DNA of 64,000 nucleotides, taken from the NCBI RefSeq assembly GCF_004363075.1, contig NZ_SNYN01000012.1, positions 1 to 64,000 of the forward strand. Reading direction: 5' to 3'. Under the pieces are notes generated by a model. The model searched no databases. It had not been told where the DNA came from and worked only from the letters and a program-made list of their open reading frames with translations. Both the position numbers and the translations under genes were made by a program. Of the stretch, positions 23,954-62,394 are shown in pieces. Origin of the DNA: Actinorugispora endophytica. Lineage in GTDB: Bacteria > Actinomycetota > Actinomycetes > Streptosporangiales > Streptosporangiaceae. Every line of letters starts with the position of its first letter. Positions within the stretch are counted from its first letter, which is position 1.

Positions 23954-24023
23954 CCCCGGTGATCTTGACCTTTTCGGGGTCTCAATCGTCTCTGAGACCC
24001 CGAAAAGGTCAAGATCACCGGGG
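23954..24023. repeat. Palindrome family 1, perfect 31-bp inverted repeat
   Basis: Arms at 23954-23984 and 23993-24023 are perfectly complementary over 31 bp around an 8-base loop. The core GATCTTGACCTTTTCGGGG recurs at 58353-58422, 62323-62372 and, degenerately, 17595-17639. A lone outer-arm fragment is at 60209-60222. It lies between the CNNM operon and the threonine aldolase gene. Confidence 0.85.

Positions 24024-34738: not shown

Positions 34739-34742
<4 letters not shown>
34533..34742 (-). CDS. MbtH-like protein
   Basis: Small NRPS accessory protein of 69 residues that binds and activates adenylation domains. The MbtH signature is clear: [20 protein letters not shown] followed by DGW, with the conserved Ser-Leu-Trp-Pro, then [23 protein letters not shown] 34742 overlaps the NRPS stop (TGA, 34741-34739) as ATGA, so it is co-translated with the synthetase. 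It is the last gene of the NRPS transcript before the permease promoter. Confidence 0.95.
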
Positions 34743-48697
<13,955 letters not shown>

Positions 48698-48952: not shown

Positions 48953-49972
48953 CTACTCCTCGCCGGTCAGCAGCGGGACCGTCTGGTCGATGGCGTAGGG
49001 GATCGACAGCACCGTGTTGAACGAGAACGCCGCGCCGATGTCGGGGTCCTCGTAGGGGACGAACAGGTCGCGCCCGTCCTCGGCGACGGCCAGCCGCTGG
49101 TAGAGCGGCTCGTCCCGGATGCGCTCGTTGCTCTCCTCGCTGGACGTCACCCACACCAGGCGGTCCACGTCGAGCAGGTCGAGCCGCTCGGCGCCGAACT
49201 GGGCGACGTTGGCGCCGTCCTCGACGAGCCCGTCGACCTCGGGGGAGAGCCGGAAGCCCAGCTCGGAGAAGAAGATCGCCTTGGGGTCGGTGTCGGCGAA
49301 CGCCGAGTACACGCCCGGCTCGAAGCTGTCCGCGACGATCAGGGTCTCCTCGGCGAACTCGGGGTGCTCGGCGCGGACCCGGGCGTAGCGCTCGTCCATG
49401 TCCTCGATGAGCGCCTCCATCTCGTCCGCCCTGCCCAGCGCCGCGCCGATCGGGCGGGCCATCTCCTGCCAGGGCGCCGCGTAGTCGGGGTAGTCGGCGG
49501 GCTGGGCCACCACCGGGGCGATCCGGGACAGCGTCTCGTACTGCTCCTGGCGCATCCCCGAGTACTGGGCGATGATCACGTCGGGGGCCAGCGCCGCGAT
49601 GCGCTCCATGTCGTACTCGTCGCGCTCCCCGACGATCTGGGGCGGTTCGTCGCCCCACAGGTCCTCGGTCCACGGCCACTTGCCGTAGGGCTCCTCCTTG
49701 AACCAGTCGACGGAGCCGACCGGCCTGACCCCCAGCGCCAGCACCGCGTCCTGGTCGGAGAGCCCCAGGGTGACGACCCGCTCGGGTTGCTCGGGGATCT
49801 CGGTCTCGCCGTACTTGTGCTCGATGGTGACAGGGAAGGCGCCTTCGGCGGCGGGGGCGTCCCCGGCCTCCTCGGCCTCGGGGCCGCCGCAGCCGGCCAG
49901 CGCCGCGGCCAGCGCGAGGGCCAGCAGCGACACCGCCGCGGACTTCGCGAACCGCGCGGATCTCAGGGACAT
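48953..49972 (-). CDS. Iron-siderophore ABC transporter substrate-binding lipoprotein
   Basis: FecB/FepB-type class III binding protein of 339 residues. A lipoprotein signal peptide (SAAVSLLALALAAALAGCGG, Cys near residue 28) anchors it outside the membrane. The mature part opens with VTIEHKYGETEIPEQPERVV, the typical beta-strand start, and contains LAPDVIIAQYSGMRQEQYETL and IDQTVPLLTGEE. It delivers ferric siderophore to the FecCD permeases downstream. It lies 159 bp downstream of the hydroxylase gene and 255 bp before the NRPS, on the same strand. Confidence 0.93.
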   Translation of the reverse strand: MSLRSARFAKSAAVSLLALALAAALAGCGGPEAEEAGDAPAAEGAFPVTIEHKYGETEIPEQPERVVTLGLSDQDAVLALGVRPVGSVDWFKEEPYGKWPWTEDLWGDEPPQIVGERDEYDMERIAALAPDVIIAQYSGMRQEQYETLSRIAPVVAQPADYPDYAAPWQEMARPIGAALGRADEMEALIEDMDERYARVRAEHPEFAEETLIVADSFEPGVYSAFADTDPKAIFFSELGFRLSPEVDGLVEDGANVAQFGAERLDLLDVDRLVWVTSSEESNERIRDEPLYQRLAVAEDGRDLFVPYEDPDIGAAFSFNTVLSIPYAIDQTVPLLTGEE

Positions 49973-50131: not shown

Positions 50132-51487
50132 TCAGGCGGGGGTGGCCACGAACCGGGGCCGCCGGTCCAGGTCCGCGTCCCGGTTGGCGATGACCGACCG
50201 CGTGATCTCCCCGGCCCTGACCGCGGCGTTGGACAGCAGCGCGGAGGTGATGCCGTGGGTGTGCTCGGTGCCGCCCTGCAGGTAGATGCCGCCGCTGATC
50301 TCGGGGGCGGTGGCCACCCGGTAGTCGCGTCCGACGCGCAGGCGCCCCTGCTCGTCGCGCGGGCACGCGGCGCCGAGCCCGCCGAGCAGGCCGGTGGGGT
50401 CGGCGGGGCTGTAGCCGGTGGCGTAGACGGCGTAGTCGGCGTCCAGGACGGTGGTCTCGCCCGTGCCCAGGGACTCGACGGCGGCCCGCACCCCCGAGCC
50501 GGTCTCGGTGATCTCGCTCACGTTGGCGAGGTTGAGCATCCGCAGCCGCCGGTCGCCCAGGACCTTCTCCTGGTAGCTGCGCCGGTAGAGGTCGTCGATG
50601 AGGTCGATGTCGACCACCGAGTAGTTGGTGTTGGCGTGGTAGCCCATCATCCTGCGCTTGACCCCGTCGGGCGCCAGGTAGAAGTCGTCCACGGCCGCCG
50701 GGTCGAAGATCCGGTTGGCGAAGGGGCTGTCGTCGGCGGGGCTGTACCCGTAGCGGGAGAACACCGCGCACACCTCGGCGCGCGGGAAGCGGCGGTGCAG
50801 GTAGGCGGTGGCCTCGGCGGCGCTCTGCCCGGCGCCCACCACGACGAACCGGGCGGGGTCGGCGTCGCCCAGCGCCTCGACGCGGGGCAGCAGGTCGCTG
50901 TTGTGCCAGACCCGCTCCGAGGCGGTGACGCCCTCGGGCAGGAACGGCCGCAGACCGGTGGCGAACACGACGTTGCGGGCGCGGTACACGGTCTCGGCGC
51001 CGCGGCGGCCGGTGTCGGACACGCGCACGTCGAAGGACTCGACCTCCTCGCTCCCGGGCCGGGTCACCGGGCTCACCCCGACCACCTCGCGGCCGTAGAC
51101 GACCAGGTCCTGGACCTGGGCCGCGGCCCACTCCAGGTAGTCGTGGAACTCCACGCGCAGCGGGAACAGGGTCTTGTGGTTGATGAAGTCGACGAGCCGG
51201 TCCCTGGCGTGCAGGTAGCTCAGGAAGCTGAACCCGCTGGCCGGGTTGCGCAGGGTGGCCAGGTCCTTGAGGAAGGACACCTGCATGGTGGCGTCGTCGA
51301 TCAGCATCCCGCGGTGCCAGCCGAACCGGGGCTGGCGCTCCACGAACAGGGCGGTGACGTCCTGCGCGCCGCCCGTCTGCCCGTTGTGCTCGGTGAGGGC
51401 GATCGCCAACGCGAGGTTGGCCGGACCGAAACCGACTCCGATGAGGTCGTGGACCGGGATTCCGTCGTCGGGAAGTGCCACTGACAT
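50132..51487 (-). CDS. L-ornithine N5-monooxygenase
   Basis: Flavin monooxygenase of 451 residues of the PvdA/SidA/CchB group, hydroxylating the side-chain amine of ornithine to start hydroxamate formation. FAD site: IGVGFGPANLALAIAL. Substrate region: MQVSFLKDLATLRNPASGFS followed by FLSYLH. NADPH site: FVVVGAGQSAAEATAYL. The late motif is VYATGYSPADP. It also has the HANTNYSVVDIDLID stretch common to ornithine hydroxylases. It is the first gene of the minus-strand siderophore transcript, with tandem iron boxes 86-138 bp upstream of its start. Confidence 0.95.
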   Translation of the reverse strand: MSVALPDDGIPVHDLIGVGFGPANLALAIALTEHNGQTGGAQDVTALFVERQPRFGWHRGMLIDDATMQVSFLKDLATLRNPASGFSFLSYLHARDRLVDFINHKTLFPLRVEFHDYLEWAAAQVQDLVVYGREVVGVSPVTRPGSEEVESFDVRVSDTGRRGAETVYRARNVVFATGLRPFLPEGVTASERVWHNSDLLPRVEALGDADPARFVVVGAGQSAAEATAYLHRRFPRAEVCAVFSRYGYSPADDSPFANRIFDPAAVDDFYLAPDGVKRRMMGYHANTNYSVVDIDLIDDLYRRSYQEKVLGDRRLRMLNLANVSEITETGSGVRAAVESLGTGETTVLDADYAVYATGYSPADPTGLLGGLGAACPRDEQGRLRVGRDYRVATAPEISGGIYLQGGTEHTHGITSALLSNAAVRAGEITRSVIANRDADLDRRPRFVATPA

Positions 51488-51667: not shown

Positions 51668-52612
51668 ATGAGAGTCGTCCTTTTCGGATACCAGACCTGG
51701 GGGCACCGCACCCTCCAGGGCCTCCTGGAGTCCGACCACGAGGTCGCCCTGGTCGTCACGCACCCGGCCAGCGACCACGCCTACGAGCGGATCTGGAGCG
51801 ACTCGGTGGCCGACCTCGCGCACGAGCACGGGGTCCCGGTCCTGGTGCGCGACCGGCCCGACGACGAGGTGGCGCGCGCCCTCGAAGAGGCCGACCCCGA
51901 CATCGTCGTGGCCAACAACTGGCGGACCTGGATCCCGCCGCACATCTTCGCCCTGCCCCGCCACGGCACCCTCAACGTGCACGACTCGCTGCTGCCCGCC
52001 TACGCGGGCTTCTCCCCGCTCATCTGGGCGCTCGTCAACGGCGAGCGGGAGGTGGGGGTCACCGCGCACATGATGGACGGCGAACTCGACGCCGGCGACA
52101 TCGTGCTCCAGCGCGCCGTCCCGGTGGGCCCCGAGGACACCGCCACCGACCTGTTCCACCGGACCGTGGACCTGATCGCCCCGATCACCACCGACGCGCT
52201 GGACCTGATCGCCTCCGGCCGCACCGACTGGACCCCCCAGGACCGCTCCAGGGCCAGCTTCTTCCACAAGCGCTCCGTCGAGGACAGCCGCATCGACTGG
52301 AACTGGCCGGCCGAGGACATCGAGCGCCTGGTCCGCGCGCAGTCCGACCCCTACCCCAACGCGTTCACCCACCACCGCGGCGAACGCGTGCGGATCCTGT
52401 CCGCGGCGGTGTCCCGGAAGCGGTACGGCGGCACGCCCGGCCGCGTCTTCATCCCCGAGGACGACGGGGTCGTCGTCGTCGCGGGCGCCGACGCGCGCAC
52501 CGGCCGCAACCGCGGCCTGGTGATCAGGCGCGTGCGCGCCGACGACGGCACCGAGTACGCCGCCACCGACTACTTCCGCACCATGGGCGGCTACCTCACC
52601 CCCCACCCGTAG
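51668..52612 (+). CDS. N5-hydroxyornithine formyltransferase (Fmt-like)
   Basis: Protein of 314 residues of the methionyl-tRNA formyltransferase fold. The N-terminal Rossmann part holds ANNWRTWIPP and the catalytic loop LNVHDSLLPAYAGFSPLIWA (His and the SLLPxYxG motif). Next comes GVTAHMMDGELDAGDIVLQ with the conserved His and Asp, and an OB-like C-terminal domain follows. In coelichelin, foroxymithine and rhodochelin systems such enzymes transfer formyl from 10-formyl-tetrahydrofolate to N5-hydroxyornithine, giving the hydroxamate loaded by the NRPS. The iron-box position and divergence from the hydroxylase support this over a tRNA role. ATG 51668 follows GAGGAG. Confidence 0.9.
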   Translation: MRVVLFGYQTWGHRTLQGLLESDHEVALVVTHPASDHAYERIWSDSVADLAHEHGVPVLVRDRPDDEVARALEEADPDIVVANNWRTWIPPHIFALPRHGTLNVHDSLLPAYAGFSPLIWALVNGEREVGVTAHMMDGELDAGDIVLQRAVPVGPEDTATDLFHRTVDLIAPITTDALDLIASGRTDWTPQDRSRASFFHKRSVEDSRIDWNWPAEDIERLVRAQSDPYPNAFTHHRGERVRILSAAVSRKRYGGTPGRVFIPEDDGVVVVAGADARTGRNRGLVIRRVRADDGTEYAATDYFRTMGGYLTPHP

Positions 52613-58361: not shown

Positions 58362-58422
58362 TCTTGACCTTTTCGGGGCCTCAACCGCCTCCGAGACCCC
58401 GAAAAGGTCAAGATCAGCGGGG
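58353..58422. repeat. Palindrome family 1, 30-bp inverted repeat
   Basis: Arms 58353-58382 and 58393-58422 pair with one mismatch around a 10-base loop. The left arm begins within the hydrolase gene and contains its stop codon. The same core as at 23954-24023. Confidence 0.85.
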
Positions 58423-60448: not shown

Positions 60449-61612
60449 TCAAGATCCGACCGGACGGCCGGGGCTATCGAGCCAGACCGTTTGGCCATCA
60501 GGGTTGACGGTCAGGCCGAAGCGTTCGCGTCCGGGCCTCCCGGCCCTCTCCCACCAGGCGCAAGCATGGTGGACTTCCGCCCACAGGTCACGGGGGCCGA
60601 ACCGGTACGCCTCATACTCGTTCGCGTTGGGTTCGTATTCGATCAGCCCCCAGGAACCGGCCCGATCGTAGGCGTAGACGCTGGCCTCACCGCTGCCGTC
60701 CTTGGCGTTGAAGCGCCGATACGCCAGCCCCGGCACCAGAACACCAACCGCCAGGTCAAGGCCCGCGATGTCAGCGGACAGCGGTGAGGGATCGAACCGC
60801 CCCCGGTAAGACTCGACTCCTGCGGATTTCTCATCCACGAAGTCCCAGATCGAACCCTTGGCCGCACGCTGGTCACGGAGCAGCATGAATGCCGCCGCAC
60901 CGATGAACCGCCCATGCGCGGCCCCTTCCCGCACATCCAGACGCACTAGGCCCGCCGCGAAATAGGTGGTCGCCCACGGGGCCACGACCGTTCCACCGGG
61001 CCGGGTCTGCTCCACCCACGCCCAGGGCACTTCACGGGCCGCCACCGTGGCCAAGACCCGATCGAACGGCGCACGCTCGGGCACGCCCTTAGCTCCGTCC
61101 CCGACCACCAGGTGAGGCCGGTACCCCAGCGCGGCCAAGTTCGCGCGCCCCTGCTCAGCCAAGGAAGAATCGATTTCGATCGATGTCACTCGATCCGCGC
61201 CCAACCTGTGACACAACAGCGCGCAGTTGAACCCGGTCGCCGTACCGACCTCCAAGACCCGTTCCCCGCCGCGCACCCGTAACGCTTGCAGCATCAACGC
61301 GACCAGCGAGGGTTGAGACGCCGAACTGGTGGGATAGCGACCACGCCCATCCAGTCCTTCCGGAGTCCCGTCGTCCACCTGCGTAATCAACGCGTAGTCG
61401 TCATAGACCCATGAACACCATTCGTCACTGTCGGAGGTGACCGGGACACGCCAGGCCGGATCATGAGTGTCACGCGGCCAGATCACATCCGGAACGAACC
61501 GGTGTCGAGGCACATTCACGAACGCATCGCGCCATGCCGGATCAATCAGCACGCCTTTGGATTCCAGGAGCCGGACAAGGGCATCCGGCCCCTGGGAGAA
61601 GTCAGGCGTCAC
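60449..61612 (-). CDS. PIMT-type O-methyltransferase with C-terminal extension (RiPP-associated type)
   Basis: SAM-dependent methyltransferase of 387 residues, related to protein-L-isoaspartate methyltransferase. The N-terminal domain has VPRHRFVP (residues 34-41), the PIMT substrate loop RYPTSSASQPSLVALMLQAL (about 92-111), and SAM motif I VLEVGTATGFNCALL (119-133), then SIEID and RPGGTVVAPW. Housekeeping PIMTs are about 210-220 residues. The extra 150 residues at the C-terminus are the mark of PIMT homologues that methylate Asp in RiPP precursors (lanthipeptide, graspetide, FxLD and imiditide systems) and so drive aspartimide formation. GTG 61612 overlaps the stop of a 53-codon ORF by GTGA. 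No ATP-grasp or lanthionine enzyme is nearby. Confidence 0.8.
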   Translation of the reverse strand: MTPDFSQGPDALVRLLESKGVLIDPAWRDAFVNVPRHRFVPDVIWPRDTHDPAWRVPVTSDSDEWCSWVYDDYALITQVDDGTPEGLDGRGRYPTSSASQPSLVALMLQALRVRGGERVLEVGTATGFNCALLCHRLGADRVTSIEIDSSLAEQGRANLAALGYRPHLVVGDGAKGVPERAPFDRVLATVAAREVPWAWVEQTRPGGTVVAPWATTYFAAGLVRLDVREGAAHGRFIGAAAFMLLRDQRAAKGSIWDFVDEKSAGVESYRGRFDPSPLSADIAGLDLAVGVLVPGLAYRRFNAKDGSGEASVYAYDRAGSWGLIEYEPNANEYEAYRFGPRDLWAEVHHACAWWERAGRPGRERFGLTVNPDGQTVWLDSPGRPVGS

Positions 61613-61770
61613 CGAGGCGGTTCCTGTCCGTCACCGCTTTGGGGTTCGACTGTCTCACCACCACCGTGACGGCTGCTGTCCTGACCGTCGCTCTGCCAGT
61701 CTCCGCCCTTACCGCCGTCCTTGGGTTTGTCATCATCGCCGTGCCTGCCCACAACCGTTCTCCTGCCCAT
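61609..61770 (-). CDS. 53-residue Gly/Asp-rich peptide, candidate RiPP (imiditide-like) precursor
   Basis: ATG 61770 is preceded by GGAG at a spacing of nine bases. The frame runs 53 codons to a TGA (61611-61609) that overlaps the methyltransferase GTG. The peptide starts MGRRTVVGRHGDDDKPKDGG and continues KGGDWQSDGQDSSRHGGG and ETVEPQSGDGQEPPR. It is very hydrophilic, has no Cys, and has three Asp-Gly pairs (residues 18-19, 28-29, 47-48), the dipeptide most prone to aspartimide formation. AGA, AGG and AAA codons are unusual for this genome and suggest transfer. A second small frame (61825-61733, 30 codons) overlaps its start but has poor ribosome-site spacing. Confidence 0.55.
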   Translation of the reverse strand: MGRRTVVGRHGDDDKPKDGGKGGDWQSDGQDSSRHGGGETVEPQSGDGQEPPR

Positions 61771-62394
61771 CGGGGGATACTCCAGCAACCGTAACCAGCC
61801 GCACGCGCTCTGTCAGAGAAACCATCCTCTATCGGCCATCCCCACCGAACCGGTTTGAACCGCGCAAGACCTGGGAGGCCGGACCACTCCCAGCCCGGAC
61901 GCGACCGCGACCAGATCCCGACACCCTCCCGCCGACCCCGCCAGCCCCGCACCACCAGGCCCAGCCCCGGACGACCTGCCCCCAGGGCAAGCCGACCACC
62001 GCGCCCCGGTCGAGGCTTTCGGAAGCCGACCCCGCGCCGGAGCGGCATCGAGCCGCACCGGCCCGGAACCCGACGACCGCACCCCCGCCGACCAGCCCGT
62101 CAACACGCCCCGTTGACACGGTCCCGGCAGGCCCCGCGCCACCGGCCCCAACGTCGCCGACGCGTCAACAAGGCGTCAACGCGCCACCCCGGAACACCCC
62201 GGACCAGGCCGGAGCAGACCGAAACCACCAGACCCCGAAAACCCCGCTTCACCAGGCCAGACGACACCAGACCGGGCCAGACCCGAACAGGCCGAAACGA
62301 CCCCACCGAGAGGGATGGATAACTTGACCTTTTCGGGGTCTCGGAGGCGGTTGAGACCCCGGAAAGGTCAAGATCAGCGGACCTCGGACGCAGG
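61771..62394. other. Non-coding stretch right of the methyltransferase cassette
   Basis: No convincing gene. It holds the upstream region of the peptide ORF, an inverted GTCAAC-ACGCCCC-GTTGAC (62099-62117), the second copy of the direct repeat (62164-62215) and a palindrome family 1 element (62323-62372). Plus-strand translations are Pro/Arg-rich and look like noncoding GC-rich DNA. Confidence 0.45.
62323..62372. repeat. Palindrome family 1, truncated copy
   Basis: Arms 62323-62342 and 62353-62372 (20 bp, one mismatch) surround a loop that is the reverse complement of the 58383-58392 loop, so it is inverted relative to that copy. The outer GATCAGCGG is present only on the right side (to 62380). 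It follows xylB's stop by 22 bases on the minus strand and may terminate it. Confidence 0.8.

Follow-up and report, generated by a model that had tools for sequence, protein, structure and literature searches.

The window, by which we mean the whole 64,000-nucleotide stretch of Actinorugispora endophytica DNA analyzed here, carries on its minus strand a short precursor peptide gene (61609-61752) that runs directly into a gene for a PIMT-type methyltransferase (PAMT; 60449-61612). The 387-residue methyltransferase starts at a GTG at 61612, and this codon shares the sequence GTGA with the TGA stop of the precursor gene (61611-61609), so that the overlap of a small ORF with a PIMT homologue described in an earlier note on this DNA is borne out by the ORF coordinates. 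The same note gave the small ORF 53 codons and a well-placed GGAG; the ORF is real, but we re-called its start from the ATG at 61770 to the GTG at 61752, which lies 7 nt downstream of an AGGAG and yields a 47-residue peptide, VGRHGDDDKPKDGGKGGDWQSDGQDSSRHGGGETVEPQSGDGQEPPR. We chose this GTG because relatives align with the peptide in both N-terminus and start: an N-terminal M-G-K/R-H is common to the precursor relatives, and in the nearest one (genome G053, whose enzyme is 79% identical) the precursor, MGRHGNDDKPEDSGKGGDWQSDGQDDSKHGSGEPVEPQSGDGQEPR, begins at the matching ATG. Given a conserved -10 element at 61788-61793, the GGAG once assigned to the ATG at 61770 sits at about the expected transcription start, predicted near 61780.

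The peptide consists of 25.5% Gly, 17% Asp and 8.5% Pro and has no Cys, and the three Asp-Gly pairs reported for it are present (D12, D22 and D41 in the corrected numbering). Its gene differs from that of G053 by 9, 2 and 20 substitutions at the three codon positions, with a dN of 0.09, and we therefore conclude that the precursor is under purifying selection. An Rfam search around the locus returned no match. Close to the cassette, and not conserved with it, a gene for a cysteine-free L33 stands beside one for a type B L31 (59641-60088), the usual zinc-sparing pair of ribosomal proteins. Elsewhere in the window, reading of the ORFs suggests a cluster of the hydroxamate-siderophore type (32072-52612), with FecCD-like permeases, a very large NRPS on the minus strand (34739-48697), a substrate-binding protein (48953-49972), an ornithine-monooxygenase-like gene (50132-51487) and a formyltransferase-like gene (51668-52612). 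A dispersed palindrome, TTGACCTTTYCGGGGTCTC-N10-GAGACCCCRAAAGGTCAA, occurs at 23976-24012, 58375-58411 and 62324-62360, apparently always intergenic in the window, and in about 138 copies genome-wide, with none found for the reversed control.

The methyltransferase has a PCMT domain (PF01135, E 2e-30) at residues 96 to 215, which contains the motif VLEVGTATG (61232-61258), an invariant or nearly invariant block in the enzyme alignment that we take, from knowledge of class I methyltransferases, to be SAM-binding motif I. The C-terminal extension claimed for the enzyme is present: the PCMT match stops at residue 215 and is followed by about 170 residues (60452-60973) that form a domain missing from ordinary PIMTs. 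Both the sequence and the alignment of relatives place a WXXXGXP motif (WERAGRP, 60533-60553) in this domain, the motif of RiPP-associated PIMTs (PMC13001092). TIGR04188 (ATP-grasp peptide maturase system methyltransferase) matches the enzyme over the whole model with 337.5 bits (E 1e-100), a score below the curated cut-off of 380; for TIGR00080, the canonical PIMT, the score is 89.4 bits and the curated cut-off of 159 is not reached. The solved structures nearest to the enzyme are PIMTs. An AlphaFold model (six sequences, mean pLDDT 62) is of low confidence and was therefore used for a broad fold match only, with the Thermotoga maritima PIMT 1DL5 as the best match along almost its entire length (about 386 columns, E 1.7e-14), a protein that carries an extra C-terminal domain of this kind (PMC10787088).

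A scan of genome contigs from close relatives yielded only 5 loci, and we therefore turned to whole-genome searches. A profile of the precursor matched in 40 of 343 genomes of one actinobacterial family, a few of them at borderline scores, with the matches lying nearly always immediately upstream of the enzyme; in a class-wide sample it gave no match at a meaningful score outside this family. The earlier note had tied the pairing to a conserved small ORF upstream of the enzyme's homologues, and here the result is favorable: among the loci fetched from many genera of the family, an intact precursor directly precedes the enzyme in 47 pairs, a count that overstates independence because the pairs share ancestry, and only a few enzymes of the clade (L126, L043) have no detectable precursor. 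Further pairs carry frameshifted or proline-rich precursors, one of the latter, MGKHEDSSNHDGHKPERPVPPPPPPEPKKDGGR, coming from the window's own genome. Distances between enzymes track those between their precursors (Mantel r 0.68, 0 of 5,000 permutations). The distribution of the cassette is patchy, and a genome may hold several copies. In the window's own genome, PIMT-RiPP loci lie on contigs C12, C1 (two loci), C2, C14 and C31. In genome G021, two copies (L117, L122), both with frameshifted methyltransferases, lie about 12 to 13 kb from either end of a single 6.14-Mb contig.

The alignment of precursors also points to the residue that the enzyme would modify. His4, Asp22, His29 and Gly30 are invariant in all 44 full-length precursors and Asp12 is found in 43; the N-terminal His4, Asp8 and Asp12 are conserved, while Lys or Arg is common at the C-terminal end, which is variable and differs between long and short forms of the peptide. 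We found only four orphan precursors, in which the enzyme has been lost or broken. The central Asp has become Asn in one (L112) and Gly in another (L116), the latter beside an enzyme remnant; the third (L118) is frameshifted, and the fourth, a second copy at L078, no longer has a start codon and adjoins a truncated enzyme. Loss of the central Asp in two of these four orphans against none of the 47 pairs gives a Fisher P of 0.005 in a sample that is small and post hoc, and whose pairs are related by descent. On this sequence evidence, Asp22 (QS-D22-GQ; codon 61687-61689, minus strand), within the conserved D-G-Q...H-G stretch, is most likely the methylated residue.

We propose that transcription starts from a promoter common to PIMT-RiPP clusters and that peptide and enzyme are made by coupled translation from their overlapping genes, two steps for which the sequence offers support. 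By analogy with the characterized relatives NmaA/NmaM and SpaA/SpaM, a SAM-dependent reaction of the enzyme would then methylate one aspartate side chain of the peptide, most likely that of Asp22, the methyl ester would be lost spontaneously to give an aspartimide, and this could hydrolyze to isoaspartate. Aspartimide chemistry of this kind is very probably what the cassette performs, perhaps with isoaspartate as its end product. A credible alternative, to which we give somewhat less than even weight, holds that the lasting product is isoaspartate (or the methyl ester) and not the aspartimide, which would make the enzyme in effect an Asp-to-isoAsp converter. Asp22 is followed by Gly, and a Gly in this position favors fast aspartimide formation. 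Moreover, SpaA(M) was purified mostly without a mass change, and aspartimides hydrolyze (PMC10787088, PMC13001092). This reading departs from the aspartimide pathway in the last step only.

Alignment of the DNA upstream of the precursors in relatives revealed a compound promoter common to the pairs, consisting of a palindrome (GGCCG-N4-CGGCC), a -35 element TGACA, 17 nt, and a -10 element GGYTACSGT. More loosely, the element reads TGAC, 17 nt, and TACNGT after GGT or GGC, it lies some 30 to 40 nt ahead of the start codon, and the GGCC half-sites of the palindrome are one helical turn apart above the -35. On the minus strand of the window, the -10 TACGGT (as GGTTACGGT) occupies 61788-61793, with TAC-N-G/T-T in 46 and TA-N3-T in all of 49 relatives, and the -35 CTGACA occupies 61811-61816, 17 nt away, a spacing shared by 42 of the 49. 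The half-sites of the operator-like palindrome (61823-61838) are kept both among relatives and at independent PIMT-RiPP clusters; in the window its distal half, TGGCCG, is intact, and its proximal half is degenerate (GGATG). A scan of the locus for generic sigma-70 promoters and terminators found nothing, in the former case because the -10 TACGGT departs from the sigma-70 consensus, and it took the comparison of relatives to reveal the promoter. The same promoter is absent from two Streptomyces relatives (L045, L047).

Copies of this promoter also stand before other PIMT-RiPP genes. In a first scan of 18 genomes, seven of the nine extra sites that we fetched precede such genes, namely a graspetide-like precursor with an ATP-grasp and a PIMT gene (L128, L131), a radical SAM and a PIMT gene (L135), a proline-rich pamtide (L130), another pamtide (L132), and solo PIMTs that start 6 nt past the -10 (L129, L133); no PIMT lies at the remaining two (L134, L136). 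A stricter pattern, applied to the 343 family genomes with at most one mismatch, gave 59 sites, of which 15 are exact. Four of the exact sites belong to the precursor subfamily that defined the motif, and nine of the other 11 precede a PIMT gene or a PIMT-RiPP cluster (graspetide, proline-rich pamtide or solo PIMT), which is far beyond a chance background that we estimate at about 1% or less (about ten such enzymes per 6-Mb genome, 4 kb searched). The two left over precede a radical-SAM gene (L159) and an MFS gene (L162), the latter being the one site without the distal half-site. Many of the one-mismatch sites are plainly due to chance or part of another element, and at this level the promoter is found at a likely cys-pamtide of a relative (L165); in the window's own genome it recurs with two mismatches before a graspetide cluster (contig C1, 403-405 kb).

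Several observations accompany these searches. Eight solo PIMTs (L129, L133, L141, L148, L151, L154, L161, L176) have no adjacent precursor and a start codon 6 nt past the -10, and their mRNAs are therefore probably leaderless. At L159 and L163 the element is followed by a radical-SAM gene and then a phosphotransferase-like gene, with no PIMT within 4 kb. A different promoter-like element, GGCCACCCCCCTGACATTCG...GGTTAGCGT, precedes a short ORF starting MAPARVRGC in several genera (L139, L140, L177-L181).

The shared promoter suggests a PIMT-RiPP regulon and so, probably, one common regulator. On balance we lean toward the broader hypothesis that the aspartimide-type RiPPs of this actinobacterial family form one regulon, in which a single DNA-binding regulator that recognizes GGCCG-N4-CGGCC immediately above a TGACA-17-TACSGT promoter would control pamtides, proline-rich pamtides, cys-pamtides, graspimiditides, radical-SAM clusters and solo PIMTs, chemically different products serving a common physiological response. 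Possible but unlikely, in our estimation, is that the promoter is ancestral, having been inherited through duplication of PIMT cassettes with no common regulator acting today. PIMT genes do stand in tandem in some genomes (L104, L111), but the first gene behind the promoter is not homologous between classes, being a graspetide precursor (with the PIMT about 1.4 kb off), a radical-SAM gene, a cys-pamtide precursor or a solo PIMT, and spacing and palindrome are conserved despite these differing first genes. Another alternative is that the enrichment reflects the bias of a motif built after the fact. The distal half-site was left out of the search pattern, and at the 18 new sites tested it is kept, with G at -20 in 16 and C at -18 in 17. 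That a promoter is common to chemically different clusters hints at one control and one purpose. Neither promoters nor regulation of such clusters are mentioned in the two papers on the class (PMC10787088, PMC13001092), and a wider search of a limited literature library returned nothing on them. A 2026 review names the tying of aspartimidylated RiPPs to biological function as the bigger challenge (PMC13001092); if the regulon is real, its regulator and the signal that it answers would indicate under what conditions, and perhaps to what end, these peptides are produced, and searches with the promoter could uncover further clusters with unannotated precursors. For the cassette itself, the analysis improves the start site and predicts which residue is modified, a prediction open to direct test.

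The precursors fall into a long form (n = 26, the window included), in which a C-terminal block holds a second Asp-Gly, and a short form (n = 19) with other C-terminal ends, mostly HGGGGEKxGK. The second aspartate, Asp41 in the window (SG-D41-GQ; codon 61630-61632, minus strand), occurs in every long-form precursor and in none of the short form, and is a possible second site of modification. It is doubtful, however, that the long form is modified at both Asp22 and Asp41, with its two DGQ blocks representing a duplicated core. The retention of Asp41-Gly in 26 of 26 long-form precursors and the likeness of the two blocks speak for a duplicated core, as do deletions at L119 and L120 that leave one block, but the short form keeps the enzyme without having Asp41, one Asp is modified in characterized relatives (PMC13001092), and the C-terminal block may be a recognition tail instead. 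The two deletions, both on the minus strand and in different genera (L119, 5001-5081; L120, 3906-3992), fall between the DGQ blocks, and the resulting peptides of 26 to 28 residues have a single DGQ block and no H-G tail.

No conserved neighbor (transporter, protease or regulator) was found around the pairs in relatives. The ATP-grasp genes of the genome (TIGR04187 matches) are confined to contigs C1 and C4 and its lanthipeptide dehydratase gene (LanB) to C25, while the window is on C12, and a hidden graspetide or lanthipeptide cluster is out, with no such enzyme near the locus. The earlier description of the pair as a stand-alone system is thus supported. As for its peptide, which the note set apart from lanthipeptide and ATP-grasp targets, a Cys-free sequence rich in Gly, Asp and Lys is an ordinary imiditide or type I pamtide precursor (PMC10787088, PMC13001092) and so no unusual substrate. 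Because the pair is conserved without any other RiPP enzyme or conserved neighbor, we assign the cassette with considerable confidence to the stand-alone type I pamtides or imiditides, Asp-methylating two-gene systems. An ordinary protein-repair PIMT beside a chance small ORF in high-GC DNA is a most improbable reading that we reject, for all that a PCMT domain is present and the nearest solved structures are PIMTs, given the score of 89 against 159 bits on the PIMT equivalog, the extra C-terminal domain, the about six such PIMT-type enzymes in the source genome, and a small ORF that is under purifying selection and conserved over many genera in protein sequence, start, Shine-Dalgarno sequence and position.

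The class to which the cassette belongs is already known, and the pair may already be in published lists. Over 1,500 two-gene clusters described by Lee et al. pair a short precursor with a PIMT that has a C-terminal domain; type I precursors are about 45 residues long, are rich in Gly, Pro and Asp and have a conserved Asp, and SpaM converts SpaA to products shifted by +14 and -18 Da (PMC10787088). The review by Zhu and Link names the class imiditides and counts 1,414 type I members (PMC13001092). Nearly all of the type I features that sequence can reveal are found in the window pair, including the two-gene layout of a short precursor adjoining a PIMT homologue and an extra C-terminal domain of more than 100 residues with WXXXGXP. 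Compared by description, SpaA/SpaM and NmaA/NmaM resemble it in layout, in a Cys-free precursor of about 45 residues rich in Gly and Asp, in a PIMT with a C-terminal domain and WXXXGXP, and in a conserved Asp beside a Gly. The window subfamily differs from the SpaA and NmaA types in its conserved D-[GS]-x(3-6)-H-G block (the two precursors of 26 to 28 residues excepted), and its long form in the second invariant Asp-Gly; the Pro content of the window precursor, 8.5%, is below the published type I mean of 16.8%. Type II pamtides or cysimiditides (FcaA/FcaM) likewise pair a stand-alone precursor with a PIMT homologue, but their hallmark, two CxxCxGxG zinc-ribbon motifs, is not in the window precursor, which has no Cys. 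The graspimiditides (fuscimiditide, amycolimiditide; TIGR04187/TIGR04188) use the same TIGR04188-like enzyme family as the window, but graspetide group 13, to which they belong, needs an ATP-grasp enzyme and the window locus is without one. Canonical PIMTs, T. maritima 1DL5 with its own C-terminal extension included, have their catalytic fold in common with the window enzyme, but repair PIMTs target the isoAsp of damaged proteins and, unlike the enzyme described here, are not paired with a precursor gene of their own.
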